Shown here in pieces: positions 6,401 through 33,400 of a stretch of 64,000 nt of DNA. Numbering within the stretch: the first letter of the stretch is position 1; the number at the start of each line of letters is the position of its first letter. The stretch spans positions 8,841,713 to 8,905,712 of the forward strand of contig NC_092574.1 in assembly GCF_037975245.1 (NCBI RefSeq). The letters run 5' to 3'. The notes under the pieces are model-generated. The model saw only the letters and a list, made by a program, of their open reading frames with translations. It had not been told where the DNA came from and searched no databases. Source of the DNA: Apostichopus japonicus. Taxonomy: Eukaryota; Echinodermata; Holothuroidea; Aspidochirotida; Stichopodidae. The position numbers and the translations under genes are program-made.

Positions 6401-9400
6401 TTATCCACAGCTTTTTCCGCCAGCCAGACACTGATCGTATCCCAGCGCTCCTGGTTCCAGTCCTGGCAAATTGAGCAAGTTTGCTTGCTCCCACACAGGC
6501 GGCACTTCGGGCTCTGATCGTGCTTGTCCCATGCCTTCAAAGGACGGAACTGCTTACAGGAGCGGCAGTTATCCATCCTTCAAACTTATCCCGAAGAATT
6601 TCCCGAAACGTCAGGAAACGTCAGAGTATCTCAAAGCTGTGAAGACAAAAAATAGATAAACAGCACGGAATAGAGAAACTCTAACTGGATAACCTAATGA
6701 AAACTTGTATCTAGTAACAGTACATAAAACCTACTAACGAACGCTACCACACGACTTGCGGGAGAAACGAACTAAACAAAGGCAGTTACCTGACTGCAAA
6801 AAGTGTGTTAAAGTACTCGACTGCTGTACGTGAAATTAAACAACACGCTAGGACGACGCTACACTAACGTGCGGGCCTAGCCACGCTTCGTGAACAACGT
6901 TCACGAGGCAACCAAACGGTTTGAAAATCACAAAAGTTGAAACGTATATTCGACAAAAAGCAGTTCAAATGTGCAGGACATTGAACAGATGAACAAAATT
7001 ACAAAAACAACGATAACAGTATACGATGTTATAGAAATATTAAGCTTTATTAAGAGCGATACTTACACCGAAGGCTGGCAATTACGGAAGGGAGATGGCC
7101 ATACACACATACAAACAATTGCCAGATGCTAGAGCGAAGTAAATACAGTAATGCATAGGTTATATGAGGTGAGGGAGTACGTGCTGTGAATTCAAATAAT
7201 TTATCATAAAACCTTTTGATAAACTATTTACAAGTGAATCAATGTCAATACTATGAATTAATTTGTATTAGCACTTTGCAAGTAAAAAGCACACAATTTG
7301 TTATGATTTTGCATAAATTGTGTTAATTTCTCTGGATTGTTCACAAAATGGGAGTTTTTCTCTTTGAGATAGCTTCATTTACCATAACAACTGTATTGAA
7401 TAGTACTCAATCAATGTCAATAGGATGATCGTATTGACTTTATTCGTTTCAAAAAGTTAACCTATAATAAGGGTACGTCGACAGATTAAAAAACCGTTGA
7501 AAGTGAAATTAGTTTGTGAAGTAGGGTACTAAAAAATCTACCCTTTCACTTTGAAAAAGAATCTCCAAAAGTGAAAGTCATCTTCTGAAGTAGTTTCACC
7601 GTTTCTCGTGACCTTGATTGCAAGCGAATGGGAACCATCCAAACAGCCAAAATATTTGACAGGTGTTTCAAAGGAAGTCCCATTGACATATTCCAAGAGG
7701 TTTTTAATAATTCTTGAATGTGTAATGTGACTCTTGAAATTTATATGGTACTTTATTCAAGCCCTTGAAAACCTTTAATGTTGATAGCTAAACCCCCTCC
7801 CCCCACCCCCCTGCAATATTCTACTTACAATATGCAAAATTTGTGCCATGAAATGTTTACAGTGATTTGCAAGGTGGTTTCTTTTCTTTATCACATCAGT
7901 ATCCACTGGTGATATGGTGCATATTAGTGTCTATCTAGAAGATCACTCATGACTTTATTCATAGCCTATTATTGCCCGCTTTTTAGCCTTGAAAAAGTCC
8001 ATCTTTATTGGCTTCAAATTTTAGCTCCAAATTGCCTTGAAGTTCTTATCATCATCAATTGCTGTAAGACATTTAAGAATGTTGTACAACTGTCGACAAT
8101 TAAATATCGTAACATTGGAAAGTGCATTACTGGTGACAGCCAAGTAATTGTTGATGTTGGAGCAGATGTGAATAGCATTTCACTTTCTAGCATATTGAAT
8201 GCCTATAATTATAACCTCGACAGTGAATCTGTCGCCATAGTAACAGCTGTGACTATTAAATGAGATATTTGGTACAAGAATCATCATCTGCTTCTCTAGC
8301 CTACAAACAATATAACCATACAACAAAATTAGGCTCAAATTTAAACCTGCATATGAAGTATTATTTATAACATTAAAATTTGTGGGACACCAAATGTTGT
8401 GTCGTGTGTAAGGGATGAAGTGGATAGTATATTGCTACTTAGAAAACAGCTAGATGGTTGTTCCACATAGATAATTAGTACATGACTTGGTAAAGAATGA
8501 GAAAAGAAAGTCACAAAATTATCTGGAGTTGTCTCCTTTTTCCACAGTGCTACGAGAAGGTGAATGGCAACCTGTAAAATGGATCGAGGTAAGTGTTTTT
8601 CCAGTCAGAGAGATATTTGCGGCCTACTTGGAGACTGATTTTTTTTTTAATACAAGCCAATTACTAAGTAATTCATTGCTGTGTTAGCTGAATGCTTCTA
8701 GCCCTAGCTCTAACGTCAAGTTTTACCATCTTTAATTTTCTGGAAGAGACATGAGCAAAGTATCTCTTGAAAGTATATGTTCAAGTCGGGTGATATTGAC
8801 GGGTATGAAAAGCTCTGTTGCTGCCACGGTGATAGTTACCATGCAGTCTGAAAAATGGGAAAAGTTTGGAAAATTAGGAAAAAAGGGAAAAGCTATTTTG
8901 GGGATTGAAAGTCCCTGAATTTTGAAGTTTAGTCTGGAAAAAGTGAGGGAAAATTCTCATTTCAGCAATTTCTTCCTATTGATAATGTTTCATAACTACT
9001 TAGAATTAGGAACAAATTTGTTGTGTAAAAGTCAGTATTGTATGTATAGGCCTACTCTCCTGTGTTTGTTGTTATGCTTCATTTTAGCTGTCGTGCAATT
9101 TAGCAAACATCATGTCTATCCTTACAATTAGGATCATGTACTGATTATTAGCAACACATGTTAAAATACAAGAGTTACAATTTTTAGGTCTAAGATAGGT
9201 AGCCTAACATGAGATTGTACCCAGTGTTTATAACACTAGGCTTTGTAGTAAACACTCCATGTTTGGTCTTGCAAAAAAAGGGCTGGAATTTTGTTGCTTA
9301 GAAAGCATAGGAACCATTTATGTGATGTTAATTTAGAGATTCTAACATACCACACAAAGACTTTCTTCTGAGAGATCATCAGGGATGGTGCCATTGATTG

Positions 9401-12400
9401 GTCCCTCGTTTGGAGAGGATAGACTCTTTTGGAGAGTAAAGAGATGCCAGTCTTAAAATACTCCATGTGCCTTTCTTTGTCGCCAGGTCGAAGTTGGAGA
9501 TATCGTGAAGGTACACCGAGGAGAATTCTTTCCTGCAGACTTGGTGTTGTTATCCTCAAGGTAGGTGTTAACATTTAGTCTTACTTTATTTCATTTTAAC
9601 GAACTCTCTCCCGGCATTTTTTCACAAACTCTCAATCTTTTGTTCTCTTGTCTTCTTTTATGACGCAGAGAATTCATATCCTCTCTCCTTTTGCCGTATC
9701 CAACCGTAAAAATTGAACATTTCCAGTCAACACTCGACAGTGCGACAGCAATCCTATTAAGAAATCATTCTGTGTCCACAAGTCTTCAATCTGAAAGCAA
9801 TAGTAATAGTGTTTCACTTTTACATTCTATGCAAACCCTATTTTTACTTTTCAATTTTTTTCACAAAATAGTTTTATCTGGTATTTTGTAGCAAAGTAAG
9901 ATGCAAAGTGAGCAAATTGCTACATAATGGAAATATGTATACCAGTTATATCTAGAGCATAGTATTTTCATTAATTTACAGGACACAAAATTTGTTTTAC
10001 TCTATTAAAACTGCTTCTCAAAATGTAATACTAAAAAATACTTGCAGTGCTCCCCAGGCCATGTGTTACATCGAGACAGCACAGCTCGACGGTGAAACCA
10101 ACCTCAAAATAAGACAGGGAGTTCCACAGACTGCTCATCTACTCTCCGAGACAGATCTGGGTAAACTGAACGGACATCTGGAGTGCGAAGCCCCAAACAG
10201 GCGGCTTTACGAGTTTACCGGGAATATCAAACTCATGGAGAGTAGCACAACGTGAGTAAAAATAGTACTACTAACAGCGACAATAACTATGACCCTAACA
10301 ATTGAATAATGTTCATACAGGCCTGACCAAAGTTTCTTTTCTTGTTTCATTTTATTGTGTCGTATCAGCATCCAGCTTCCTTATGGTAATTGTTACCCGA
10401 CTTGATGCATTTATTAAAGCCAATAAATATTCATAGAAGTTTATGGTGATATAATGATGTCATCTTAAATAACAGAAATTTAATTCAGATGAAAAATGGA
10501 GTCTCTTTTTCACTTTGAGAATTAAAAATATTCAACTGACATTAGGGGTCAAGAAAAGACTCATTTTCATTGGTGGGAAGTCATTTAGAATAGGACAGTC
10601 CCTAACTATAAAACACAGAACACTTGTAATTTATTCACATCACCCATCGTGATGCCCAGAGAGAAGTTTGTTTTGCTATATAAAGACTAACATTTATCCA
10701 TGTTTTTGTACACATAGGGCTAGAGAGATGCCCAGAGAGGAGTTTGTTTTGCTATATAAAGACTAACATTTATCCATGTGTTTGTACACATAGGGCTTTA
10801 CCTCTACGTCCAGAGCAGATTCTACTCCGGGGTGCAGTCTTGAGGAATATTCAATATATTCATGGGGTCGTGATCTATACAGGCCATGAGAGCAAACTTC
10901 TTATGGTAAGTTCAGAAAAAAATTAAAAGAAAATACACTAATAGAAATTGTTCAGTGTATGGAGAATACAGAGAATAGTCAATTGCATTTTCATATTTTA
11001 TCGCAAGTTGTAACCAGAAACATGCAAAACAACACCTCTCCAAAGCATGTACACATAAAGTACAGGTTGATAGAAAATGGCTGTTGAAAATAACCTGAAA
11101 CCTCCCTCCCTCCCCCTCCCCCTCCCCCCAATAAAAGTTAAAAGGTTTGTTAGGATTATGTTTTGATATAAGTTGACCTTTTCAAATATGCTCCTCAACT
11201 TTTCCTTAAACCCAGATTAATAGATGAAATTTTGAACATAAAAACTCTTGGATTGAAGTGTATCCAATTACTTGTGAATATTTTGTGACCTTGTCAGAGT
11301 ATCGTAAAGTATTAACTTAACATCAAATGCAGATGTAATTAGAATACTGTTTTTCTCTCAACGTCAAGGACAAGTTAAAAGCTGTCCTGCTAAGATCTAC
11401 CGTAAACGATCAAAAAATGATCAAATTACAGTCTGGTATCTGATAGAATTTTGCAACACTTTCAGGTAGAGAGTAGATTTTTGGGCACATTTTTGCCTTG
11501 TAATTTACCAGTACATGTTCTGTTTTTATGACCTCATCCTCTACATTGCTTGTTTCAAACACAATGATATCCGTGTTTGGTCTGTGAATTGCTTAAAGTC
11601 CTTCAACACTCTGTGATTTGATTGGATTCTTACGTTTTCTCCTTATTTTTAATTCCTCCATCAGAACTCTAAGGCAGCGCCATTAAAGAGGTCCACGGTA
11701 GATCGAACGACCAACGTCCAGGTAAAAACATCTTTATTAAATAATCTACCCTTGGATATTTCCTCTCGTTTCTAACGAACTTTATACCATCAGTCGAATT
11801 GATCCGTTCTTTCTTCAAGGGTAATTGTCTTTATTTACGTTGCTAATCCACTTCTTCTTACAAACCTTCCCCCTATTAAATGACTTAAAACAATAACGCT
11901 GAATTTTGTTTATGTTGGATTAAAGGGGTCGGTAATTGTTCATGGCCTTGTACGCTGCATTTTATGATCGGAAGGTGGAAGGCTTCTTGTCCTTCAGTTT
12001 GAATTGAACAAACGATTAAGTTTATAGCAGAATAATTATGGAAAAAGAAAAAAATGCTTTTAGGCTGACTTTTAAATTCTTTGTTGAGTGTGTGACCATT
12101 AAGCAGAGCAGAAGGATATGAAAGTAATTAAGCACTTCAGGTAAAAAAATTGGTATTTTCTCTCGTTCTTTTCCTAATAATCTGTTGATTTATTATTTTA
12201 ACCATTGACTGTTTTTTTGCTCATTTAATAAAGATCCTCTTCCTGTTCACTATACTGGTGGTGTTATCCCTCATCAGTGCCATCGCCTCCGAGGTCTGGA
12301 ACACCAAACATTACTACAAAGATTGGTATCTAGGCTTCTCTGGTAAAGACATTTTTATTCCTTCCACAGCCTTGAACTGATCTCTAAAACCCTGTAATTA

Positions 12401-15400
12401 AAACGTAATCAAGTTGGCATCGTCTCAATGTCTTCCCTTTTTGAAAAAAGAACACTATTTCATATTAAGGCACTTTAGAACGTAAGAAAAAACACTATTT
12501 CATAGGCAGTCACTTCAGAACTCAGTCTGATCAAATTCCAAATTGGGATAATGAACCCGCAATCAATTATAGACATCCTTTGCTCGCAAATATCCTCAGG
12601 AAATGTTCTTGCTTGTGAAGGATACATGCTCAGGATATGCACGTTATCTGTTCATGGAAACGCATGTTCTTTTCAGATAGTTGCAGTGCCTTGATACCTA
12701 ACTCTTGTTAATAAGGTGTAGACTGCCTGCATGTTATGAACACTTACTCTTTCTTACTTCTTTTGAGGATGGTAAAAATTGACAATATCATTGACATTTG
12801 AAATTTTAATTACTTGGATAAACAAAGAAAAGATTTCTGTTTAAATCGTTAATGGTTAAAGCTCTGTTGCTGAGAGAGGAAGACCTTCAGGATTTGTAAG
12901 CATATTTGTATTACAAATGCTTGGTTGGTATAACCAAAGACTTGGTATTTATTATGATCAAACTTAAATTCAAAGGACATTCTCTTGAACTTTAATAGTT
13001 GCATCCAAAATACTCATGTGGTGGAATGGCAGTCTATGTATAGCATATGTAGGTATGTCTATAGAGCATTGTAGATGTCTGGTGATGTAAAAGTGTGAAA
13101 AGGTGAAAGGTGCACAGGCTTGCCTCGATTGTGAAATATCTACATCACATTCCACTGCAATATCTCTTTGATCTTAATTGGAAGCCACCATTTTATTCCT
13201 TTTTATTCCAACCGGGGTGGGGGGGGGTGGGGCGAGGTTAGGAGCCAGCTCTGACCCCAGGGATGATTATCTCAGTCTGCCTCCTTTTTGGAATCCTCAC
13301 TTTTGCCTAGGACCCCTATTTGACCCAGGGCCTTGGAACCGTAGTCCCCTCACTCCCCCCCTCTCTCTTTAGGACTGCTCGTCACACTTTATTGCGGCAA
13401 TGGGTGATGACTATTTAGAACAGTCAAATTAATGCGAACTGTAAACATGGGTATATTAGCAAGCAAACATTTAATGTAACTAGTAAACGAACTATGCTTT
13501 TATAAAATACATGTTTATCAGTTTAACAGTTAAGAAATGGATTAATTTTCAATGCATAGCTTGTAAAACTCTCTAATATTTACAACAATGTTGTGTTTGT
13601 TTAAGTGTGAAACATAATAATTTACCACAGAATACATCAAGTACAACCATACATATATTTATATATGTTTGATGAAATCTATTTTCTCTTTCTCTCTTCA
13701 GCTAAGGCGCCAAACAATTTCTTCTACAATTTCCTGACTTTTATCATTCTCTATAACAACCTCATTCCAATTAGTCTACCAGTCACTCTAGAGCTGGTCA
13801 AGTTTGGTCAGGCTCTCTTTATTAACTTTGTAAGTATCTCAGTCTTTAAGTACAGTCTGTCAATCAAATAGGACTGTCAATAGGACTATCAAATAGCCAG
13901 TCATATAGGACTGACAGGCTCACTCACCTGTACTTCAAAGTTATCTAATTATTTAGTAATAGTTATTAAGTTATTTAAATACTTCAGAAGGGGAAGTCTA
14001 CAAATCCTCACTGGATCCACCCAGAGTTAGTATTAATGCCTCACATATTCACCTTTATGCAACGTTAATCCATTGCAGTAAGGATTGTTAAAGGGGAGTA
14101 CCTCTCTTTTTATTTATCTGCACCGCCCTCTTCTAGGACATAGACATGTATCATAAAGAGAGCGACACCCCGGCCGCAGCAAGAACATCAAACCTCAACG
14201 ACGAGCTCGGTCAAGTCAAGTACGTCTTCTCCGACAAGACCGGCACACTCACAGAGAACGTCATGTTATTCAAAAAATGCACCATAGGAGGAATCATTTA
14301 TGGGTAAGTCGATCTGAACTGGGTCAAACCAAAAATGGTAGCAAAAAACTTATCCATCTTTTTAAGAAGAGATTTTTCCTCTTTCCTTCTTGTCTTTTAT
14401 TTCTTTGGTGGGAAAAAAAGAGCAAATTTGGGTCAGTTCTTCTTGGATGATGATCTGTGAAAAAGTGCTACTATTACACCGATTGGCGTGAAAATCCTGT
14501 GATGTTAGGGGGAAAAAAAATATATCACCAGCTGTATTAAATATTCTTTCAATATCATTGCTCTATATTATGTAAAAATGATAGATTGATAATTGTCCAG
14601 GACTAGTATTTCTTGATTGCATTACAGACTCTGCTGAGATAACATTTCTAAATAAAGGAACAATTATTGTGTTGCATATCTATGGTGGTTTTGATTTTTT
14701 TTTTTTTTTTTTTTTGCAGTGCCAATGAGAACTATGACATCTATGAAGAGAGACTTATTTCAGATAATTTAGAAACACATGTGAGTGACTTTATATTGAA
14801 TGTTGCTGGATATGTATAGCTCTTTTTAATGAATCAATGGAAATTACACAATGATAGTTTGTGACATGTACAGTATCATCTGCATTATTTAAAAAGTGTC
14901 TTAAGAAATGTTTATTTTTTGTCTGCTTTTGAGAAACTCAATTTTTCTAGCATTTTGTCAATGTTTCTAACATTTTGTTTTGTCATTAAAAATTCTGATT
15001 GCATCAAATTGAAAATCTTCTTACCCGCTGGTTATTGTAAATATTAAATGCATGATGTCAGAAATATATAAATGATATGAATGAAATGAAAAGATTTCTC
15101 AGAAATGTTAGTAGTGTAGTCTATTTCTGATTGTTATCTTCTCTGTGATTTAACCAGTCCACTGCACCTCATATCAGAATGTTCCTGAACATGTTAGCTG
15201 TCTGCCATACATGAAATTAAATGATTGCTCAGATATGTTAGTAGTGTAGTATATATCTGATTGTTATCTTCTCTGTGATTTACCCAGTCCACCGCACCTC
15301 CTATCAGAATGTTCCTGACCATGTTAGCTGTCTGCCATGCATGAAATGATTTCTCAGAAATGTTAGTAGTGTAGTCTATTTCTGATTGTTATCTTCTCTG

Positions 15401-18400
15401 TGATTTACACAGTCCACCGCACCTCATATCAGAATGTTCCTGACCATGTTAGCTGTCTGCCATACAGTAGTTCCAGAGAAAGATGAAGACAGTGATGAAA
15501 TCAAGTACCAAGCATCTTCTCCCGGTGAGTCCCCGCATCTCATCCAAGTCTCAGAACAAGTACAGTCTGTCTAATTCAAGAATAAATTGCCCTTAGAGTG
15601 TCTTTAAGTTAACCATTGTCGCCCTAAATTCATAAGATAGATGCATTTAGCCAAGTCATGCAAAGTGTCTCACGTCTATAACCCGAAAGTTGACGGGAAA
15701 AGAAAGAGTAGGAAAAGAACAGCAAAGCAAAAGAACTGAAAAGGGAGAAATCACTTTGCTATTAGATTCCAAACAGAAAATGAAAGCTAACGAAAATGAA
15801 AGATAAAGAGAATGAAAGCTAAAGAAAAGGAAAGCTAAAGAAAGCGAAAGAAGAAGAAGGGGAAAAATTGCTTTGCTATTAGAATCCAAAAAGAAAATGA
15901 AAGCTAAACAAAAATGAAAGATAAGAAGATTGAAAGCTAAAAAGAAAAATTAAAGCTAAAGAAAAATTAAAGCTAAACAAAAACGAATACTAAAGACAAT
16001 GAAAGCTAAAGAAGAGGTATGGGGAGAAATCGGCTGCTATAAGATCCTTAAAGCTCCCTTAACAAAGTCTAATGTACTTAGCAAGTTACGACAAGATCCA
16101 CAGTTGTGGGGACATCTTAGCAGTGATCTAATGATCAAATTTAAATTTCTCTGACACAATTTTTTTTTCTTTTTTTTGAATGCAGATGAAGGTGCTCTGG
16201 TGGATGCAGCTGCACGGTTAGGTTTCAAATTTATCGCCAGAACACCGAACTACGTCGAGCTGGATTTGGTAAGCACCCTTCCATTGACAGAACGGACTGT
16301 GGGAAAGTCTGCATTAGGTTTGAGATTTTTTTGCGAGAACATCGCGAGCTATGCAGAGCGGAACTTGGTTAGCACTCATGCGTTGACTTAACAGGACACT
16401 GACCTACATAGATATGGACTTGGTTAGTACTGGATGCGTGGACTTAATGGACTATTGCAGGTCTGCATAGCTTTCAGATTTAAGAACAGTCAAATGCTTA
16501 GAGCTGGACTTGGTTATTACCCTTTCATTAATCTTACACACTGTTGAAGGTTTCAGATTTATGACAAGAAGACTGAAATACAGAGAGCTGGACTTGGTTA
16601 GTACTCATGGGTTGACTTAACAGGACACTGGACTACATAGAGATGGACTCTTCTATTTACATAATAGAAGAGTCAAAGGTCTGCTTAGGTTTTAGATTTA
16701 TTACAAGAATGCTTAACAGTGTAGAACACGACTGGCTTAGTAGTGCTGCATTGACTTAACAGACTGTGTTAGGTTTGCTAAGATTTCTGATTTTACTACG
16801 AGAACACTGATCAACATAGAGTACTCATTCAGTGTCTAGCATCACTATTTCAGGTCTGTCTCAAACTTGATAACAGAGGATTCAGTTTATAGCATCCAGG
16901 CTTTACATCAATCTTGTAATCTGTGTGTCTACAGATTTCCAAGTTACATCGACTTTCCTATTCTATATTAATAATAATAATATTTAATATTTGATTTTTA
17001 TATAGCGCTTTACTCCAGCGATAGGTCTCAAAGCACTTTACAGACGTTATATTACCCCTGGTCAATGATAACCTGTCCCAGAGACAATCCCTCCAGTCCG
17101 CAGCAGTTATATACTGCGCCCAATGACAAGTTACCTCACAGGTACCCATTTAACCCCTGGGTGGAGAGAAGCAAGTGAGATAAAGCATCTTGCCCAAGGA
17201 CACAACTTAATTAACTAGGCATGAATCGAACCAGCAATCCTTGGATCATGAGTCCGACGCCTTAGCCAATTGGCCACCACGCTCTCATTAATTACTTGCA
17301 GATTTAATTTGTTTTTTCTTTTTCTGTCACTTTAGAATGGAAATAGAGAACGCTATGAGATACTTAATGTGCTGGACTTCACAAGGCAAGTCTGATACGA
17401 CTGAGGTGTTTGTGGATATTGAGAAGCTTCAGGCTATTTAACTCAGGTTAAATGTATAATTTTATGAACAGACTTCTACCAATGGCAACTTTTGAGTGAC
17501 TAGAAGTAATCCTTACCACAGAGTAGAGTAGTCCGTGTGCACTGCAGAAACTTCAAGGTTACTCTAAAAACTTCATTCTGATATAAGAAAACATGATCTT
17601 TCATTCCCGAAAGGAGTTTATTCAATGTTCAAAGATGTATTTGATCTCAAGTGGCTTTAACCTGAAAGTAACATGTCTTGGATACTTCATTGCAAGAAGA
17701 ACTCTTTCTCCCAACTAATTACAATAAAACCCAAAGTGTACCAGTAGTGCTATAGATCACTGGCTCAGAAAATTGGTACCCGTTTGTGCGTTTTTTTCCC
17801 GATTCGGGTACCCGAATGTTCGTTCCAGTACCCGACTCAGGCCTAGTAGAGTCAGGCCACACTGAGGCCGGCAGTGTGCCAGCCCCTGTAGACGGTCTTT
17901 TGGCTGACCTTCCACTTTAAGGAAGCTTTGTACTTGCTCGTCTTTTATTGTTTGTCTTTATCTATTCCAGTGACCGGAAGAGGATGTCTGTGATTGTTCG
18001 CACCAGTAAAGGATCCATCTTATTGTTATGTAAAGGAGCAGTAAGTAGAAAGATTCATTAAATCTTGTATTGACATCTGTAACATGGAATACAGTTTGAA
18101 TACTTGGATACTGTGTGAACTGTTGTCGAAATAGAGAAGCCATCACAGATTTAATAAGTGCCCTGTTTGGAAAATGAATAAGTTAATATTATTTGGTTGG
18201 TCATACAAATGATATCTTGTTATGATCAAAATAAAATAAAACTGTTAGCAAGCTGCTTATCCACTAGAGAGCCTGTGTAGGAGAATGTGTAAAAGTAACT
18301 TTGCCTGACGTTTTGATCCTAGCAGGATCTTCTTCAGAGGGCTGCCTGACGTTTCGATCCTTAGCAGGATCTTCTTCAAAGGCTAAAATGATAATTATAT

Positions 18401-21400
18401 GATTCATTTTAGCCTTTGAAGAAGATCCTGCTAGGATCAAAATGTCAGGCCAACTTACTTTTACACATCTTGTTATGATGGTATTGTAAAGTGACTGAAG
18501 ATTGATATCAGAGGGTTCATGGAACAACTTGAATATTAGTTTTGGTTATATATACTTGGTGTAGAGTACAAGATATTGATACTAGTACTGCATTCAACAG
18601 GATTCATTGATACATAAGAGGCTACATACATTTAGTGTATGCAACATTGATACTACTGCATGGTACAGGATATATGAAAGACTATGTCTATTTAGTGTAT
18701 ACAACATTAATATTACTGCATTCTACAGGATTCAGTGATATATGAGAGACTACTCACATTTAGTGTATGCAACATGGATACTACTGCATGGTACAGGATA
18801 TATGAAAGACTGTCTATTTAGTGTATACAACATTGATATTACTGCATTCTACAGGATTCAGTTAGAGACTACATACAATTAGCGTATGCAACATTGATAC
18901 TACTGCAAGGTACAGGATATAAGAAAGACTATGTCTATTTAGTATATACAACATGGATATCACTGTATTCTACAGGATTCAGTGATATATAAGAGACTAC
19001 ATACATTTAGTGTATGCAACATTGATACTACTGCAAGGTACAGGATATATGAAAGACTGTCTATTTAGTGTATACAACATTAATATTACTGCATTCTACA
19101 GGATTCATTTATATATATATGAGAGACTACTCACATTTAGTGTATGCAACATGGATACTACTGCATGGTACAGGATATATGAAAGACTGTCTATTTAGTG
19201 TATACAACATTGATACTACTGCATTCTACAGGATTCAGTTAGAGACTACATACATTTAGTGTATGCAACATTGATACTACTGCAAGGTACAGGATATATG
19301 AAAGACTGTCTATATAGAACATTGATATAACTGTATTCTACAGGATTCAGTGATATATAAGAGACTACATACATTTAGCGTATGCAACATTGATACTACT
19401 GCATGGTACAGGATATAAGAAAGACGATGTCTATTTAGTGTATACAACATTGATATTACTGCATTCTACAGGATTAAGTTAGAGACTACATACATTTAGC
19501 GTATGCAATATTGATACTACTGCATGGTACAGGATATAAGAAAGACGATGTCTATTTAGTGTATACAACATTGATATTACTGCATTCTACAGGATTCAGT
19601 GATATATAAGAGACTACATACAATTAGCATATGCAACATTGATACTACTGCATGGTACAGGATATAAGAAAGACGATGTCTATTTAGTGTATACAACATT
19701 GATATTACTGTATTCTACAGGATTCAGTGATATATGAAAGACTACATACAATTAGCGTATGCAACATTGATACTACTGCATGGTACAGGATATAAGAAAG
19801 ACGATGTCTATTTAGTGTATACAACATTGATATTACTGTATTCTACAGGATTCAGTGATATATGAAAGACTAGCAGCCAGCCAAGAGTACACAGAAGATA
19901 CTATACAACATCTAGAGAGCTTCGCAGCTGAAGGTAAAAGCAATAAATCGTGGTTGAAAGTAAATGCATAAAAGTAACGTGGCATTGTGTAGGTAAGGTC
20001 TTCCTTATCCATCCTGATGGTAAGGTCTTCATTATCCATCCTGATGGTAAGGTCTTCCTTATCCATCCTGATGGTAAGGTCTTCATTATCCATCCTGATG
20101 GTAAGGTCTTCATTATCCATCCTGATGGTAAGGTCTTCATTATCCATCCTGATGGTAAGGTCTTCCTTATCCATCCTGATGGTAAGGTCTTCATTATCCA
20201 TCCTGATGGTAAGGTCTTCATTATCCATCCTGATGGTAAGGTCTTCATTATCCATCCTGATGGTAAGGTCTTCCTTATCCATCCTGATGGTAAGGTCTTC
20301 ATTATCCATCCTGATGGTAAGGTCTTCATTATCCATCCTGATGGTAAGGTCTTCCTTATCTATCCTCATGGTTCATAAGAGTGGGATGGTTGGAAAAGAA
20401 TTCACCCATCACTCATTACTCGGTCCAGTTTTACAAAGGGTAGATCGTGATCAGATGCTTATTGTATCAAATTATTTACAAGGCTGATGGACAGATATTA
20501 TTTTGATGATTACTGAATTTATTTTACATAGATTCAATGAGTACTCAATGTCTGGTATTATATTTGTGGACAATGATCTTCTGCATGAATATTTTCAAAT
20601 TTCCTACTTGTTGTCTGGTAGCCCTTTTCTTTTTTCTTTTTCTGGTGTCAATGCTACCTGTCCCATTTACACATGTATACTCTCAAGAATTGCTTAATAT
20701 GTGGCATTGTTCTTCAACATCCCTTTCCTTTCTTATGCACAATTTCTGACACTTTCAAGTTTTTGTTTGTATTTCAGGATTGAGAACCCTTTGCCTGTCT
20801 TTTAGAGAAATTTCCAACGAAGATTATGAGGTGAGGCTTTGTCATATCGATAATTAATGATCCTGGTTAATACTATGTTATAACTGATGTTGTCCCACAG
20901 AGATGTCTTCTGACACCTCATTATCTTCCATAAGGTGTAGTCTTTGTCCGATGTAAGGGTAAACAGCGTCTGTTGCACAACCATTAGGCTCCTGGTTCAA
21001 GAATGTCCACCAGGAACCAGATTTCTCGAGATTGATATATTACAAATTGCTCCTTAGAATGTCATTGAGCAGAGTCTTCCCTGGATTGTTATTTCTGGTT
21101 TTTCGAATCGGGAAAAATGGGGTTTGCTTGTTCCTTCAATGGTTTAATAACAACTTTGTTTGCATGGCTGCTTGGCAGTGACAAAGAATGTGGCGGCCTT
21201 AGGGTACCATTACTATCTGATAAAGTAATTAGATGCCAAGGCAGACACTTGTGCATCTGACGAGGGACGTGAATAACAATCCGGTCAGTAAAAATGGTTA
21301 TGACATCTATACACCTGTATCGTAAATTTTTCTGAACACTCATAAAGAGGGGGTAGCCCTGATGTAAACCAGGGTTCATTTATGATCATCTCATGGATAT

Positions 21401-24400
21401 GGTTTAAACTGAGCCTATGTTTGGTAATACTAAAACCAATACCACTATATTGTTTAGGTTGAAGCATAAGCCTTTGTTCGGCATACTAAAACCAACACCA
21501 CTATGTCGTTTAGGTTGAAGCATATAGCCTTTGTTTGGCAATACTTAAACCAATTCCACTCTGTTGTTTTACAGGAATGGTCTGCTACTTACTACAAGGC
21601 CAGTACAGCCTTACAGAACAGGGAAAAGAAACTGGAGGAAGCCGCTGAACTCATAGAGATGAACTTTACTCTGATCGGTGCGTCCGCGATTGAAGACAAG
21701 CTACAAGATGTAAGAAGAAACCCTTGCTATCACTTACCTATCTCCTCAGAACAACTGCACCCCCACCTACCCAAATCTAACCCTTATAACCTCATATTAA
21801 AACTTTCAATTTCCCCCGTTTCGTATCATTGGAAAGATTCTCTCAACTTGTAAAGTATTCTGACGTTTGGAAAATTGTGTTTTTATTTACATTGACAGAA
21901 GAAAACAAAAACTGACTGAGAATTGTAAACAAAGTTTAGATAGAGCAAAAACATTGGTATTTGGTTTGATTTTTCTGTAATGTTTTTATTCAGTTCTCTC
22001 CTCAGGGTGGATAAGTGGGAGGTTGCAGATATCAAATATCAATTATGCATATCATTTCAATGATCTGGCAGTAATAACCTGTCATAATTACTGGATCACC
22101 GATATTTAATTTCATGACTACCAGAAACAACAAGTTAATGACCAGTTTTTGCCACAATACATCCATCTTGTCTACTTAAAAACTATTTGTGTGTCCAATC
22201 TCTTGCCATCATCCAAATACAGTAACATCTTTCCTCCACTTCCAGATCTCTACTCTGAGGGGGGTAAGGGAGGGGGGGGGGAGGGGAGGTGTTTTCCAGT
22301 TCTTGATATAAATTCCAAGCTGGTTGGATGATGCAATAATTCAGTCTTGTCTCTCGCTTTTCCTTATTTCTACCCAGGGTGTCCCAGAGACAATAGATAC
22401 ACTATTGAAAGCAGATATTAAACTCTGGGTCTTGACTGGTGACAAGCAGGAGACTGCTATCAATGTTGGTAAGTCAATCATCAATCATCATTAATCATCA
22501 TCACAATCATCATCAATCATCAAACTCCGCCTCAGTCACCAACTGTGACAGAGATTACTAACAGGTTGTCATAGTTACAAACAGTTACCTACAGTGCATG
22601 CATACAAAATGGCAGGAAAACCAGCGCAAGCAATTCGCAGAACTGCTACCCATGCTAAGGACTATACAAATTGTCACAGGCATTGGTTGCTCCCCAATAA
22701 ATAGAAATTCTTGAATCGTAAGGTACCGTTGCTAACGAAATCTGTTGGAAAAAGTCCAAGCGAAAAAACGCATGATGTTGGCAGTTTGCATGGTAGAATG
22801 AGAAGGAAGGGCATTGACCGGATGGGCCAGTTATAGAGGGCGCTAACAGGTTACCAGTTCATTCTAGGCACGATAGAACAAGAGTGCGAAGGTTGTAAGG
22901 AGACACGTAAGTGAGGAGTGCAGTACGTATTAGAAATTAAACTTACATTAAATATAACCATGCTAAACTACAACTAAACATAATTATACCAACCTCAACT
23001 CAACTAAACTAATAAAACTAGACTAAAACTAACTAAACTGAATTAACGAACAGTGCTTTACAGCACAGGACAAGAAATTGTTTTCTTGACATGTTTCCTC
23101 CTGCAAAATAATGTTAGTTATTGCACACTATTTATGTTTGATATTGTTCTCGTTGCCATGGACACAGATATTTTCAGTATAGTTGATACTGGCTAATAAT
23201 GGTTTTAACGTAATCCTTTCCAGGCTATTCATGTAAATTACTGTCGCCTGACAATATGGTCGATACCGGCTAATAACGGTTGGTGTTGGTTTTTAACCTA
23301 ATCCTTTCCAGGCTATTCATGTAAATTACTGTCGCCTGACAATGCGGTGGATACCGGCTAATAACGATTGGTGTCAGTTTAAACCTAATCCTTTCCAGGC
23401 TATTCATGTAAATTACTGTTGCCTGCATGACAATATGGTCGATACCAGCTACTAATGGTTGGTGTCGGTTTTAACCTAATCCTTTCCAGGCTATTCATGT
23501 AAATTACTGTCACCTGACAATATGGTTGATACCGGCTAATAACGGTTGGTGTTGGTTTTTAACCTAATCCTTTCCAGGCTATTCATGTAAATTACTGTCG
23601 CCTGACAATGCGGTGGATACCGGCTAATAACGGTTGGTGTCGGTTTTAACCTAATCCTTTCCAGGCTATTCATGTAAATAACTGTCGCCTGACAATATGG
23701 TCGATACCGGCTAATAACTGTTGGTGTTGGTTTTTAACCTAATCCTTTCCAGGCTATTCATGTAAATTACTGTCGCCTGACAATGCGGTGGATACCGGCT
23801 AATAACGATTGGTGTCAGTTTTAACCTAATCCTTTCCAGGCTATTCATGTAAATTACTGTCGCCTGACAATATGGTAGATACCGGCTAATAACGGTTAGT
23901 GTTGGTTTTAACGTAATCCTTTCCAGGCTATTCATGTAAATTACTGTCGCCTGACATGCCCCTCGTGATCTTAAACGAAGACAACATGAAGGACACTGTA
24001 GAGAATCTCCAGAGACAAATCGACGAGTTTGGAGATGACATCAATAACGAAAATTATGTCGGCTTAGTGATTGATGGAAAGGTAAGTACAAGTTTAGGAA
24101 CCGATTGATGGGTGAGTCATTCAGTTATATTGAGAATGTGTCTTATAAACAATTTCAATTTGTATTATAAACTCGCTGCAAATTTAAAAACAAAAGAATG
24201 TCATCATTAATAACTTCTTTGTCAATTTACGACATTATTATTTTGCAAATTTTCAATGACCCAAGCTGCTTGCAAGTTTGGAAAACTCTTCAAAAACTTT
24301 TCTATGCTGATTATTTTGCAGTGTTGGCAAACACTCTTTAATAAAGCTCATATCTGCCTTCTTTGCTAAAAGTACCATGTAAAAATTCTGCTAGTAATTC

Positions 24401-27400
24401 ATATTTCTTAGGAAAACCCTAGTAACTCGACATATTATGAGGAAAAGTGTGTTATAAGGAAAAGAAAGGAATTATTAGCCAATAATCTTCATTGAATATT
24501 ATCAAATTTGGTTGCTCTTATTAGTTGACTGTTGTGTTTGGGTTGTGAGGTTGGCATGGTAACATCTATTACAGATTAAAGGAAACAGAAAGAAAAAAAT
24601 GGCCTTATTTTGGAAGACTACATGAACCCCTAGCACTTTATTTTCTTGAAGTTCTCTTCAGTTCTCGACCCAAACAAATCATAATTCTTCTTTTATACCA
24701 CGATGATTCTTCTTCAATTATTTTCTCTTGCTGTAGCCTTGTTGGGGACTATATTACATTAATAAATTTAATTAATGGATATTGGGGAAATTACTGGATA
24801 TTGGATTAAATTTCATTCATCATACCTGCACCTTGCTTTGCTCTCTGTATAGATATAGAGTGGGTCGTAGAAATAGAGTGTGTGTGTATCTGTAATAATT
24901 CTAACCCAGATTTTTCAGAATGTTTTTTTTTCAGAAAACAGATGTTTATCTCAAAATACTTCAGAGCAGCTTACCCTATTAACCTCTACAGTATATATAG
25001 AATGAATTAAAGAAGGGTTTTATTGTTCAAACTGAGAAACACTAGATGTTGACACATCATTGTTAAAGTTAGGACGTAACTAACGCAAATACTATCAATT
25101 TTAAAAGTGTTGTTCCTCAGACGCCTAATCTCATGCAAAAGCAAATGGGAAATATTCAAAATGATTGACGACATTTCTTCATTACTGGTAATTAAAAGAA
25201 TTGTACCTAGTCAAGATATATTGAAATACATTGGTATGTGATTTTTGTATCACATTTCATCGGAAATTTACCCAACAGAGATAAGGAAGAACTGTTAATT
25301 AGCCAGGATATTTCGTTTATGAAATTTTTATCGCTTTGCTAACTTATTTTTCTCACATGGAAAACCATTCAATATCGTCATGACATGCCTTGATTGCATG
25401 AATAAAAATTAAAAAGGTTTTTCTTTTCCAAGTATGAACAATAGAATGTGATATTAATTAAATAAATATATATATGTATGTGTCTATATATATAGTGTAA
25501 CCAAACTACTGATCAGAGCCCCAAAAAATGAAAGCAGTTTTAATTGGGGGGGGGATCTTCAGCATTTCACAGAGGGCGGTGTCACATTAATCCTAACAGT
25601 GACGTAGATCTGGGTGAATAAGCTCGTGACCTATACTGTTTACGGATCTCCTAAGACTTGTTTAAAAGCGCTGTAACGTTTCTCAATCTACATATATGCT
25701 AGTTGTGAAAATATGTTTCAAAAGATCCCGTCTTCAATAATTACGAGAAGGATCGCAGGTACATTCCACATTGGAAACTTCATACAATTTAATCTATTGA
25801 AAATACCTCAAAGAAGCTTTCTGATTGGTTCACGACCAGGCGTGTGTAATGTTGCCAAACGTACGTTGGAGCGACATTTAGTTGCTAAAATAGGGTAATT
25901 ACGAATGGTGATAACCGTATGTTAGTTCGATCATGTCACACGATGTGTGAATCAGGTTAAAGTGCAGGTAGTTTGATCGGAAGGGTCCGTCAGAGATTCC
26001 GCAAAGGAATTCTCAGTGATATCAGAGACTGCAACTGTCAAGTTTCGTAGAGCTAGAAGGGAGGGATAAGACAGCGCCCTCTGTTTATTTATGGCGTGAA
26101 TGGCGATCCCCATTAACACATTTATATTTACAATCATAACCTGAGATAAAATCTTTCATACATTTAATCTCACTAAATATCAAAAGCTGTTCACCTTGAC
26201 CTTGAGTGTTATCGTAGAAAGTAATTATGTATACACCATTTATATTTCTAGCTTATTAATGGTATATTTAAGGCAACTTTATATTTTGTTATCACAGTAT
26301 CTAACTGTTATATCTGCATGACTACATTTTTGCTAATTTAAAACTTTACTGCTTTGATAATCTGACAATTTACCCTTTTTCTCACCTTTTTAGACCTTAC
26401 AGTTTGCACTTGACCCTTCTGTCAAAACTGATTTCCTTACTCTGGCCCGCTCATGCAAATCTGTGATATGCTGCAGGTTGGTGTTAGCTAACTCTATGGT
26501 CTGCAATCTGGTCACTCTGATACTAGTGTGATATGCTGGAGGGAGGGGGATTCTAGCTAATTTCTCTCCTGCAAATCTGGCAACTCTTGACATAATGTGC
26601 TTCATTCTAATTCTGGCTGATTCATGTTCTATAATCTGGCAGTTGTCATACTAGTTTGTTATCTAGCAGATTGATATGAGCTTCTTTATTAATTGATATC
26701 CTGTGATATGGCAACACTTTCATGAACATGGTATGGTGTAGGTCAATGCTAGCTGGTCCATTGTCTATGATCCGGGCACTCTGTTATTTAATGTGCTATG
26801 TTGTAGGTTGCCTTTAGCTCACTTATTCCGCCCACTTCTGATACTAGTGTGATATGCTAAAAAGTTATTCTAGCCAATTTATCACATGATATCTGTTTAC
26901 TCTAATACCATTATGATATTCAGTAGTAAGATGCTAGCTGATCTGTAGCTAGTCATTTGGCCACAGTCAATCGAAATAGATAGTGGAATGAAGAATTGCT
27001 GTGAATCTCAATGGGTTTATGTGATAATAACTATAAAAGAGAGAGACAAAGCGTAATAATGAAATGAGTTGTCATAAAGCTGGACAATATAGCAGAGGGA
27101 GGTTTGTTGCTACGGAGATGCCAGGAGATAACAATCTGTAAATATTTCTGACCATTTCAATGAGATATCTGGCATAATAAGTTAGATGTTTGTTACTATA
27201 TCACAGCTTTGAGATTGTGTCCCATCACACAGCTCCATGTATGCTACACATGTTTCTAATTGTTCTCCAATATCACAAAAATAGAATCAGCGTAAAATTT
27301 TCAAACAAATTTGTTACGCATAAGCAAAATGCAACATTTCTTCAATATTTTACCATTATTGGTTTGATGCCATCTTTATAAAAAAAATTAAAAAATCTTT

Positions 27401-30400
27401 GCAAAGTACACGCCATCTATGTATGTCCTGATAAATTACTATATATTCTTTTAGTCTGAGAATTATCACTTGTGATAATAACATACAGTTTGCAATGGTA
27501 TCTGTGATTTGTTGTTGTAGACTTTAATGTGTTCAATGTATCACAAAAAAACATGTTGGCTTGCTACCCGATTCTGAACTGAAAAGACTTAAAAAAAGTA
27601 TTTTAAAGGGACATACAGCAATATATCTGATCACCAGAATGGACCATTCACTGTTTGGGTTATATCAAATCACTGGCATGGACCATTCACTGTTTGGGTA
27701 ATAAACTGATCACTGGCATGGACCATTCACTGTTTGGGTAATAAACTGATCACTGGAATGGACCATTCACTGTTTAGGTTGTATCAGATCACTGGACTGG
27801 AATGGACCATTCACTGTTTGGGTAATAAACTGATCACTGGAATGGACCATTCACTATTTAGGTTGTATCAGATTACTGGACTGGAATGGACCATTCACTG
27901 TTTGGATATTATTAACTGATCACTGGAATTGACCATTTACTGTTTGGGTAATAAACTGATCACTGGAATTTACCATTTACTGTCTGGGTAATAAACTGAT
28001 CACTGGAATGGACCATTCACTTTGTCGCCATGGCGGGGGGATTGTACTGTAGTGTACCAGCATCAAGTGCTTTAACGGTGTATTGTCGAACATCCTCCTT
28101 GATTGAGCTATTAACTCTTTAAACTGCTTTAATACGCATGTGTGCTCTGCATTGATGTAACAGCACTCTAGTAGTAAAGGAGGTTGGGGGAGCAACTAAA
28201 TTGTTTTTGTATCGTTTTTAGTTCTCCTGATGCCCATTTTCTTCAGATATCTTGGTGTTTACATCGTTATTTAAATATAAATATTCTCTACAGGGTGACA
28301 CCTTTACAGAAGGCAGAGTTGGTTGAACTGGTGAAGCAGTATGTTAAAGTAGTAACTCTGGCTATTGGTGATGGGGCTAACGATGTCGGTATGATACAAG
28401 TGAGTCCATACCATTCAAGCTTTGAATATTGTTTATTAATATCTCACCACTTTCGTTCATCCTTAGCAAGGGTTTCATTTACGAATTTAGACCTTAAACA
28501 TCGCTTATCAGTAATACAAAGAGTTACGGTGTGTATCGGCACACCTGAATATAAATAATTAGGTTACTGTTAGAAGGTACAGGTTAGCCACGTTATGTAA
28601 TAATGAATTACTGCTACAATATTTAACCAGAGATTGTGTAATAACACTTGCACTAGTGTCATATGTTGGGTGGAATATGTCAGTAAAATATATAATAATA
28701 TTTAATATATGCTTTTTATATAGTGCTTTATACCAGCGATAGGTCTCAAAGCACTTTACAGACGTTATATTACCCCTGGTCAATGATAACCTGTCCCAGA
28801 GACAATCCCTCCAGTCGGCAGCAGTTATATACTGCGCCCAATGACAAGTTACCTCACAGGTACCCATTTAATCCCTGGGTGGAGAGAGGCAAGTGAGATA
28901 AAGCATCTTGCCCAAGGACACAACGTAATGCACTTGGCAAGAATCGAACCAGCAATCCTTGGATCACGAGTCCGACGCCTTAGCCAATTGGCCACCATGC
29001 TCTCTAAAAGAATAAAATAATGATTTATTGTATTATAGTTTGTTATATATGCATCCATGTGATTACTACATTTGATGGTTATTATGTACCGATGCTACGT
29101 AATACTGAAGGTGTACGTAATACTTACTCGTGTAACTCGTAATTCTGTGATCCCTTTACAGGCTGCAGATGTTGGTATTGGTATCAGTGGCAACGAAGGG
29201 CTTCAAGCAGCCAACTCATCTGATTACTCCATCGCTCAGTTCCGCTTCCTCCACAAATTAATTCTGGTCCACGGCGTCTGGAGTTATAACAGGATCTCCA
29301 AAGTCATCCTCTACTCCTTCTATAAAAACATCTGTCTCTACATCATGGAGGTGAGCTTTGATACTGAAATACAGGGGAAGGGTATCATCCTTCACAGGGA
29401 AAGAGCTCAGTGGTGGTCATGGGTGTGGTATGTCATGAAGGTGATCCTTCAATTAAGCAGACTGGTATCCTCAAGTGATATAGAAATAGCTTATTATTGT
29501 TTACAAATATATGTAGAATACCCCTATTTGCTTATTGCAAGGCCTTCTACATAGTTATGAAAGCTGAATAACCATAGCCGTAAGATTACTCTAGTGACTG
29601 TTAAATGTAGTAAAAACATCTCTTTCCATCACTCGACTCTTTACAAGGACTTGTTAATAGTACTGTAAGCTGAATAACCATAGCCGTAAGACTACTCTAG
29701 TGACTGTTAAATGTAGTAAACACATCTCTTTCCATCACCGGACTCTTTATTACATCTTTGATTTCTCTTTCTGTTTAGTTTTGGTTCGCTATAATAAATG
29801 GTTGGTCTGGACAGATCCTGTTTAACAAGTGGGCCATTGCATGGTACAACGTGGTAAGTCGGCCAGCGACTTTATACAAACTATGTAATATCTACGTAGT
29901 AAAATATGATCAGTCAATTCTCTGCTCAATCAGTGGGTGTGTCATGAAATGCCAGCTCACATCAGCCTTAGGAAATATCACCAGCAGTGACCATCTAGTT
30001 TCAGGTCAAATGTCTCTGGTTTTACCAGAGTTTGCTTATACTCTTAGTTGCACTTAATAACAAATATCGCACAGGGTAATATATCGTGTTCAAATTTTGT
30101 AGAATAGAATTATATTAAATATGCTGATATTTCTAAATGAGCTTGGCTTTGTAAAATGTCAGAAATCGAAAAATATTTCAATTTTAACGTCATATCGTGT
30201 ATGTAGTGGCAGGGAGGAATTTAATGATTAAATTATTTTGTGATAGTTTGGAAGGCTTTTAGTTCCATTTTTGTATTTGTAAAATACTATCGTTCTTTGC
30301 GTGCAAAACCTGCCAGATATCTTTGCACTTGTGTAACAATTTTTTTTTTTTTTTGCATAGCATTTTTGCTATGTGATATGTAGTGCCCTTAGTATTAATA

Positions 30401-33400
30401 AATGTGTAACTTATACATATTTATAATTTTGTGTTTCATCCTCCCCCCCCCCCATTCAAGCAGGATTCATAGCTTTCAGAGGATGAGTTATGTTTAGTAG
30501 TCATTAATAGCTGTTAATCTTCACCTTGTTCCAGGTATTCACCCTTCTTCCACCGTTCGCCATCGGCCTCTTTGACAGGAACATCAGCGTTGAGAGTATG
30601 CAGAAGTTTCCACAACTCTACAAGTCATCACAGAATGCTGAATATTTCAACACCAAGGTATTTATATATATCGGCATATTAACACTTTCACCAAATAACA
30701 CTATCTGATCTATTTCAGTACATTAGTAAGTAAATAAATATCAATTTCTCAATACAAGGTTTTCCTCGGAGAGAGATTTTTGATAGTGGAATAGAATCAA
30801 GACATTTTCTTCAGCTGTACCGTTATTGAAGTTCTATTTTTTTGCGCTCCAGGTTTTCTGGATGTGGACGACCAACGCAGTCTATCATTCATTGATCATC
30901 TTCTTCTTTGTGGTGGGGGCGCTCTCTGGAGATGCTGCCTATGGAAATGGACAAAGTGGAGACTACCTCTTTGTGGGTAACATGGCCTACACGGTAAGTT
31001 AGGTAACATGGCCTACACGGTAAGTTACCCTTTATAGGTAACATGGCCTACACGGTAAATTACCCTTTATAGGTAACATGGCCTACACGATAAGTTACCC
31101 TTTATAGGTAACATAGCCTACACTCTAAAGTTACCCTGGTGTTCAGCAACATAGTTTTAAGTGTGTTATATGACTTTGTAGCTCAGTTCAGTGTATTCTG
31201 AGTGTGAATTTCAATCAAGGAACTGAAAAATTAAAGGTCCTAGCTACTAAACTTCAAGTGTATGAGAGAGTAGGAAGATAATAACAAAGGATCTTGTGTA
31301 CCAAATGGAATAAAAACATAACAGCTCTGTAACATGTGTTATAGTATTACTTAAGTATTTCTGTTGACTTCCAATATGTTACCTAAGTGTGTTATGGTAT
31401 TACTCATTGTTTCTGTTTACTTCCAATATGTTACCTAAGTGTGTTATAGTATAACTTAAGTGTTTCTGTTTACTTCTAGTATGTAGTGATAGTGGTCACC
31501 CTTAAAGCTGGTCTTGAGATGGACGCCTGGAGTTGGGTAACTATTCATTCACTATAAAATCAACTCACTTTAATCTAATATGTTTGATAGGATACCCTTT
31601 AATTGATCTGTCTGTCATGTGACTCCCAAGAATAGTAGTGCATACTCCAAGCCTGCAGTACAGTCAGCTGTAAATTGTCAATTGTTGTATCACAACAATG
31701 TAGACTTCACTTCAATCACTTCCTCTCGTGTGATGGTAGAAATTGACATATATTCACAGTCTACCTTCTTGGTTCAATGAATATTGTTAGCCTTCAAGTG
31801 AGCACTTGACATCAGTTTGTGCTAGGAGTAGTTGTGATCCATTAATTTTGATACCTTCATGGCAAAGCTCATCTTGATATTTATAAAACTACAATCATAG
31901 ATCTTGATATTATTTCATTTTTAAATTGGGTAGTGTCACATAAATGTATTTATTTCTTCTTGCAAACAATGACCAATCCTTAAATAGGACATTACTTTGA
32001 TAGGTATGCACTTTAACACCAGTTTGTGCTAGGATTAGTTGTGATCCATATAGATATACATATATACTCCACTGTTGCAGTGGATGTGACAGGGAGAATG
32101 TTTACTTTCAGAAAGAACATTTTTTTCACTAATCAATGTGATTCGTTTTCCACGACCCGCTGTTTCGGTTGCAACTGATACTTTTTGGGAAGCGTGGTAT
32201 TAAATTTCTCTAGTCATGTTTTCTTCTAAGATATTTTCTGTGAAATTATAAAGTCTACAGATATTTTTTGTCTCTTCTTTAATCTCTATAGCCGGTACAC
32301 GTCTCACTCTGGTGTGGTATCATCTTCTGGCTCTTATTCCTCCTATTGTACTCAGTGGCGTTACCTATCTTACCTATCACAGCTGAGATGTACCATCAGG
32401 TATGTTATAGCAATATCAGGACCATTCAGCTTGTACAGTAGTAATAGTTTGGAAGGTCCTAATCATGGTTCATATAAACAGAAATGAAGGAATACATTGG
32501 AAAAGTACTTGGCTTGTACATTCATATGCATGCATGAGGTTGAAATGTGTTTTCAATGTTGTGTATTAATTTTAATACAATTTTACATTTTCTTTAGTCT
32601 AGGCTTGTTAACAGCATAGTTTTTGTATCATCCTTACTAAGATAGACATATATTTACTTACCCATTTAAGTGGTATTTAAGCTACATGAACATCTGCACT
32701 TTTCTATGTTTAGTTCAAAGTACTTATTCAATAATAACATCAACACCAGCAAAAAACATTCAACAAGACTTTAACTTTTAAAGTCAGGTGTTTCTGCAAA
32801 AATATCTCATTTTCATTTTGTTATCCTTATTTGTTTTCTTTGGAGAGATGAAATGATTGAGTCAACTAGAGAGGTAACAAATATATTCTTAAATAAATAA
32901 TTCCCATTTCTGTGTAAATTCCTCCTACTTGCAAATTACTTCTTGCAGGGTTTCTGTCTTCACCCATTACTTCCTTTACTTCTGTCAATCACAGGAAAAC
33001 TTTATCGAGAAAAGTAAACCATATAATTGTTATCTGAGTTAAATTTAAATATGATGCATACAACTGGTCAGCTTGTAAATATTTGTTCAATTACTTTTGA
33101 TTTGTAAATATAAACTGCTGCAGTTATTGGCAAAAACCTTACAAACTACAGATTACAAAATAATTCCAGGCTGCTGATTTGACACTAGGCCAGTTTGCCT
33201 AAAGTTGAGAACTTTTGGAAACAAACGTGCCCTTTATTGACTTTCAAACACAGAAAACATACATATTAGACACTTATAAAGCACTGCTACATCGAGATCG
33301 TAGCGCTTGACAACTTAGCCTTGGTCATTGGTAACTTGTCACACCTACACACCAAAGTGTGCGCAATTCAATCATCTCTCCTGGGGCACCACAGTGCACC

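Follow-up and report, generated by a model that had tools for sequence, protein, structure and literature searches.

Why should minisatellites lie again and again on the splice boundaries of one gene? The question is raised by a stretch of 64,000 nucleotides from the sea cucumber Apostichopus japonicus (contig NC_092574.1, positions 8,841,713 to 8,905,712; "the window" below), which carries a gene for an ATP8A-type P4-ATPase. An initial annotation, made from the letters alone, listed nine exon edges of this gene as lying within tandem arrays and offered two causes, duplications that copy exon edges or selection that keeps arrays of decoy splice sites. The observation in ATP8A is real and is confirmed in part, and edge-spanning arrays holding intact decoys are present in other genes of the same genome as well. 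They are probably ordinary intronic minisatellites whose founding unit by chance straddled an exon edge, near-neutral repeats of the kind called "mirages" in amphioxus.

Tandem arrays at the exon edges of ATP8A

The ATP8A gene was modelled by reading through the sequence and joining pieces bounded by AG and GT, giving 982 codons in a single open frame. The model has 29 introns: 28 are GT-AG, and the remaining GC-AG intron, at 17385/17386 (+), follows exon 13 with the donor AG/GCAAGT; the reading frame requires the GC donor. The protein's best match in the PDB is a phospholipid-transporting ATPase (6k7g, residues 1-963), which we take to be ATP8A itself. When the genome (671.58 Mb in 35 contigs) was searched with this protein and 47 of 57 candidates were scored, identity above 60% was found at the window locus only, with more distant relatives on contigs C13, C10 and C11. 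Exons occupy 9.4% of the modelled gene, as the earlier estimate of about 90% intron had it, and exon edges are dense, at 60 per 31.4 kb.

Tandem Repeats Finder (TRF) gave 15 merged arrays with a period of at least 10 inside ATP8A, six of which include a splice site. Two further edges, the donors at 16268 and 26476, fall within decayed repeats missed by TRF and detected by self-blastn (16213-16302 against 16539-16631, 72%, E 1e-11; 26462-26621 against 26792-26942, 67%, E 1e-13). The gene and its arrays are as follows.

4072..35504, + strand: ATP8A-type P4-ATPase (phospholipid flippase) gene, 30 exons modelled, 5' and 3' ends incomplete
10651..10797, + strand: array of 76-bp units, 1.9 copies, on the acceptor of exon 5 (10794); 4 exon nt; one decoy, AG intact
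15081..15466, + strand: array of 125-130-bp units, 3 copies, on the acceptor of exon 11 (15413); 54 exon nt; two decoys, AG in 2/2
16213..16821, + strand: decayed array on the donor of exon 12 (16268); 60-72% identity
18586..19872, + strand: array of ~128-bp units, 10 copies, on the acceptor of exon 15 (19849); 24 exon nt; AG in 10/10 decoys found
19992..20372, + strand: intronic array of 27-bp units, 14 copies, off any edge, 59 nt past the donor at 19933; 13 strong donor-like GGTAAG motifs
21412..21569, + strand: array of 56-bp units, 2.8 copies, ending 6 nt short of the acceptor of exon 17 (21575); no exon bases
23200..23956, + strand: array of 87-bp units, 8.6 copies, on the acceptor of exon 19 (23927); 30 exon nt; AG in 8/8 decoys found
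26462..26943, + strand: decayed array on the donor of exon 20 (26476); 61-67% identity
27627..28021, + strand: intronic array of 40-bp units, 9.6 copies, off any edge
30976..31137, + strand: array of 35-bp units, 3.9 copies, on the donor of exon 25 (30993); 18 exon nt; GT in 2/3 decoys found
31335..31484, + strand: array of 52-bp units, 2.8 copies, on the acceptor of exon 26 (31480); 5 exon nt; AG in 0/2 copies

Eight of the nine edges originally listed do lie in repeats, six of them in TRF arrays and two in decayed ones, and the ninth, at 21575, falls away, its array stopping just short of the acceptor. Two of the eight edge repeats hold only 4-5 exon bases, and at 31480 the copies read AA where AG is expected. 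In the TRF edge arrays the reading frame is kept by the copy contiguous with the remainder of the exon, which is the last copy at the acceptors and the first at the donor. The repeats range in age from near-identical (97% matches at 10651) to barely recognisable (the identities of 60-72% among the decayed arrays), just as the initial annotation described, and its suggestion that duplications have copied exon edges is supported.

Two 99-nt exons upstream of the modelled gene, at 331-429 and 2470-2568 (+), are alternative versions of one ATP8A stretch (QIPGVSPTG...). Both have AG and GT borders, each shares the reading frame of the exon at 4072, and 62 of their 99 nt are identical; they look like a mutually exclusive pair. 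They were found after the model was made and are outside it.

Chance, closeness to exons and other genes

It had been argued that random minisatellites would seldom include exon edges in a gene made up mostly of introns. That expectation does not hold, since uniform placement of whole arrays already puts 4.50 of the 15 on edges, where six are observed (P 0.25). This null is too generous because arrays grow by insertion, and nulls that place one unit, or keep it within its intron, were used instead. Random placement of a single unit within the collapsed gene gives an expectation of 1.47 (P 0.0014), or 2.05 (P 0.007) with the best-scoring TRF periods, while a unit placed in its own intron gives 3.4 over all 15 arrays (P 0.10); uniform placement with limited exon overlap gives 2.42 (P 0.02) or 1.78 (P 0.005). 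Given an exon within 60 nt, 3.7 spanning arrays are expected (P 0.10), and given one within 300 nt, 2.0 (P 0.005). About nine null variants were tried and the P values are uncorrected for that number; those for ATP8A are optimistic besides, because the gene was picked for showing the pattern. The two decayed arrays (16268 and 26476) stand outside these statistics because the control genes had no equal search.

The controls comprise nine CCT/HSP60 genes, eight myosin genes and two P4-ATPase genes, with 219 exons and 400 internal splice sites. They were picked by position from hidden Markov model (HMM) hits, with compactness as one of the criteria, while their DNA was still unread. The CCT/HSP60 set consists of the multi-exon loci (two single-frame loci were omitted), the myosin set of 8 of about 16 loci, and the P4-ATPase set of two paralogues (the C3 locus was omitted). 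Exons came from our own gene finder with HMM anchors, so that some may be missing; before counting, 11 doubtful predicted exons were dropped and the edges of six were moved. One moved edge, the CCT1 donor at 11864, is placed only approximately and lacks a GT, and of 229 donors overall 227 are GT and one is GC. Arrays were counted only if they lay wholly between the first and last modelled exon, which excluded, among others, an array at 26497 in the myosin gene MYOh. Tandem arrays make up 13% of the sampled gene span.

In these controls the overlap of arrays with exon edges is close to what chance gives. A first count on 15 control genes found 7 of 37 arrays of at least 100 bp on edges against 6.18 expected (P 0.42); after the set had been enlarged to 19 genes, 11 of 53 overlapped a splice site against 8.78 (P 0.24), or against 10.2 with the unit placed in its own intron (P 0.45). 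Taking all arrays of at least 25 bp, 11 of 101 do so against 10.28 (P 0.46), or 15.5 within their own introns. Adding ATP8A brings the count over 20 genes to 17 of 63, where 10.59 are expected (P 0.021) or, within introns, 12.6 (P 0.10). The comparison with random placement proposed by the initial annotation for the whole genome, run here on 20 genes, therefore comes out near chance in the controls under most nulls and above it when exon overlap is limited to 70 nt, and a process aimed at exon edges is unsupported. Nor is the pattern limited to one gene: 8 of the 19 controls have at least one edge array holding intact decoys.

Several results weigh against a chance founding of these arrays. 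Among the controls, 39 of the 53 arrays are no more than 200 nt from an exon, where uniform placement expects 23.3 (P 4e-6), whereas microsatellites in the same genes show no such bias (28 of 70 near exons, 27.8 expected); once the position is conditioned on the intron, a weak remainder is left (39 against 33.3, P 0.024). Limiting exon overlap to 70 nt lowers the control expectation for edge-spanning to 5.75 (P 0.023), and introns that hold just one array give, over the 20 genes together, 15 against 9.6 (P 0.036). ATP8A is in excess when a unit is placed in its own intron and arrays of at least 100 bp are counted (6 of 10 against 2.4, P 0.013) and when an exon lies within 200 nt (6 spanning against 2.2, P 0.007), and its edge-spanning exceeds that of the control genes (Fisher P 0.018). 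The kinds of edge are also unevenly shared. Control edge arrays sit on ten donors and one acceptor (P 0.012) and those of ATP8A on one donor and five acceptors, a difference (Fisher P 0.005) that chance explains poorly. The status of ATP8A as an outlier is modest and post hoc, and its edge-spanning does not wholly follow from closeness to exons.

The closeness to exons, the unbiased microsatellites, the excess in ATP8A and the control excess under limited overlap would all be in keeping with a mutational process biased to exon-flanking DNA, for example one coupled to transcription or splicing, that seeds minisatellites around edges. The bias shrinks when arrays are compared within their own introns, though, and there the control edge-spanning all but matches its expectation. 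Much of the bias may come from a preference for short introns, because arrays are denser where the intron has little other sequence (2.20 per kb in introns with fewer than 300 bases of it, 0.13-0.50 above that). Given closeness, the 11 spanning arrays of the controls compare with expectations of 10.1 for a zone of 60 nt, 9.3 for 200 nt and 7.8 for 300 nt (P no lower than 0.14), so that an array preference for short introns or exon-near DNA suffices for edge-spanning in the controls to follow. We consider biased seeding rather unlikely, and just as doubtful its corollary, that across the genome it would leave a small percentage of splice sites with up to dozens of near-perfect decoys, ignored by a rule that could be read from RNA.

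Decoy splice sites and their probable tolerance by splicing

Decoy copies were searched for at a similarity of at least 70% around the splice site, a search that favours well-kept copies, and 127 of the 135 found keep the AG or GT (104/109 in the controls, 23/26 in ATP8A). Of the 17 edge arrays, 15 hold one or more copies whose core is intact, the failures being CCT1 17567, for which no copy was found and which is the one exception among the 11 control arrays (10/11), and ATP8A 31480, where no copy is intact. The largest sets are on donors: the donor after one CCT1 exon has 35 copies found, 34 with an intact GT, and one myosin donor, in MYOf on C17, has 24 copies about 47 nt apart, 22 of them intact. 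The CCT1 gene (loci L015-L017, C17:156400-179300) is about half tandem array, 12 of 22 kb. An intron of a myosin gene (L027-L029 reversed, 7076-8257) contains an open frame of 394 codons that looks GPCR-like.

All 23 intact ATP8A decoys reach a stop codon inside the extended exon, and stops in all three frames are present in the 13 of 17 edge arrays that were examined. Stop-free frames through the arrays, suggested at first, were not borne out by the computed open reading frames.

We suggest that each edge array was founded by a short tandem duplication, probably through replication slippage or unequal exchange, that would have copied a splice site and a few exon bases. Growth of the array would then take place on the intron side, since the exon-contiguous copy must remain intact. 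Splicing would hold to the exon-contiguous site, by exon definition, while stray use of a decoy would run into a stop codon and the transcript would be degraded; the array may be homogenised for a time and later decay. Arrays would be tolerated, and be near neutral, because splicing would use the exon-contiguous site and decoy use would end in a stop. The whole looks like an accident tolerated by splicing, not a device aimed at exon edges.

The second cause offered by the initial annotation was that selection keeps the arrays as decoys for splicing control; they might, for instance, bind U1 or U2AF or give rise to non-productive transcripts. The share of intact cores, the decoys' median score (near that of the used site in most arrays) and the stops that follow decoy use in ATP8A all accord with this, and in 7 of 8 arrays conservation was higher in the columns of the splice motif than elsewhere in the unit (P 0.023; P 0.08 for the core alone). 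That extra conservation was nominal and is gone under an anchor control on eight arrays, in which the splice motif is ordinary compared with other positions (mean rank 0.40, P 0.18), and the copy search is itself biased to well-kept copies. Units are unrelated between genes, fresh and decayed arrays coexist, and the array at 31480 has no intact decoy. Selection for decoys is unsupported by these data, and we judge it very unlikely.

That the arrays are assembly artefacts is barely credible: tandem repeats are error-prone and only one assembly was used, but edge arrays recur in 8 of the 19 control genes with varied units, decayed arrays are unlike assembly errors, and PacBio HiFi reads underlie the published A. 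japonicus assembly, if it is the same one, as given in the part of that report consulted (PMC10344927). Equally far-fetched is the idea that the copies serve as genuine alternative exons, or extend exons, and so bring repeats into the protein, for they hold exon bases and splice signals but run into the stops described above. An origin from an introner-like or other mobile element is unsupported: among 70 arrays from the 20 genes and the window there was one related pair of units, within the same gene.

Purely intronic arrays were not found to be enriched in splice-like motifs (34 arrays in 16 genes), and they rarely carry strong ones on the sense strand (donor 1/34, acceptor 0/34), the 27-bp GGTAAG array at 19992 being the only one with donor motifs in most of its units. 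In array-free intron DNA (143.5 kb from 16 genes) there are 34 strong donor-like motifs on the sense strand and 54 on the antisense strand, and this shortage on the sense strand is a hint that stray donors carry a cost.

Other repeats are present at the ATP8A locus. Matches to the tRNA-like Rfam family RF00005 at 1923-1986 (-) and 28929-29000 (-), with similar DNA seen by eye at about 16985-17285, appear to lie inside dispersed repeats, perhaps tRNA-derived short interspersed elements. At 18302-18470 a CCTGACGTTTTGATCC...GAAGATCC motif recurs in short direct and inverted copies that form a palindrome and, by eye, resemble a small inverted-repeat element. A GC-rich block at 4530-6600 in an ATP8A intron (52% at 4001-6000) is unlike its surroundings and may be a transposable element.

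Probable mirages in an echinoderm

The founding paper on mirages, on Adh, is reportedly that of Canestro and others in 2002. In amphioxus, tandem repeats across exon-intron boundaries have been described in Adh3 and in the globin genes BflGb6 and BflGb9, the BflGb6 mirage having six and three units in two haplotypes; reverse-transcription PCR there suggests that splicing is undisturbed by the many AG and GT copies (PMC3087553, in the sections consulted). TnC and PGBD5 are given as further amphioxus mirages in the portion of PMC3902484 consulted. Mirages are also marked by somatic instability or a copy number that differs from haplotype to haplotype, and by concerted evolution of the inner copies from which those at the boundary are exempt. 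The sea cucumber arrays resemble mirages in being minisatellite-type tandem repeats of the junction between intron and exon, found at donors as well as acceptors, with many copies that have their AG or GT. The unit spans the boundary and copies exon, with 2-69 exon nt in the array (several have only 2-7), and the edge arrays of the 20 genes cover 11 donors and 6 acceptors. Unit lengths overlap, at about 35-280 bp here and 10-72 and 150-160 bp in the amphioxus cases of the sections consulted. The differences are that the host is an echinoderm and not a cephalochordate, that one donor has up to 35 copies, and that the arrays are known here from the DNA of one assembly. Contig C35 of the genome accords with an echinoderm host: COX1, ND4L and COX2, in this order, read open under NCBI code 9, the code and gene order of echinoderm mitochondria. 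Our search of the literature on mirages and on intron minisatellites of echinoderms and sea cucumbers recognised no echinoderm case, although its coverage was limited and the absence is weak. With three of the features of mirages present, the arrays would extend this kind of repeat from amphioxus to a new phylum, as judged from DNA.

Two neighbouring classes invite comparison. Ordinary intronic minisatellites share the period range and array size of the edge arrays, and differ in that the unit of an edge array holds an exon edge. Tandem duplication has been put forward as a route of intron gain (in the part of PMC4974935 consulted, and likewise in the mirage model of PMC3087553, as far as the sections consulted go), and like it the edge arrays create new splice-site pairs; unlike it, ATP8A is still read through its original sites, with no new intron shown.

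Ten of the controls' 400 internal splice sites are located in arrays that contain one intact decoy or more, which suggests that mirages are not rare in this host. The edge arrays bear on the question of whether such repeats yield new introns, and the donor arrays of CCT1 and myosin are natural competition experiments in how the spliceosome chooses among near-identical sites.

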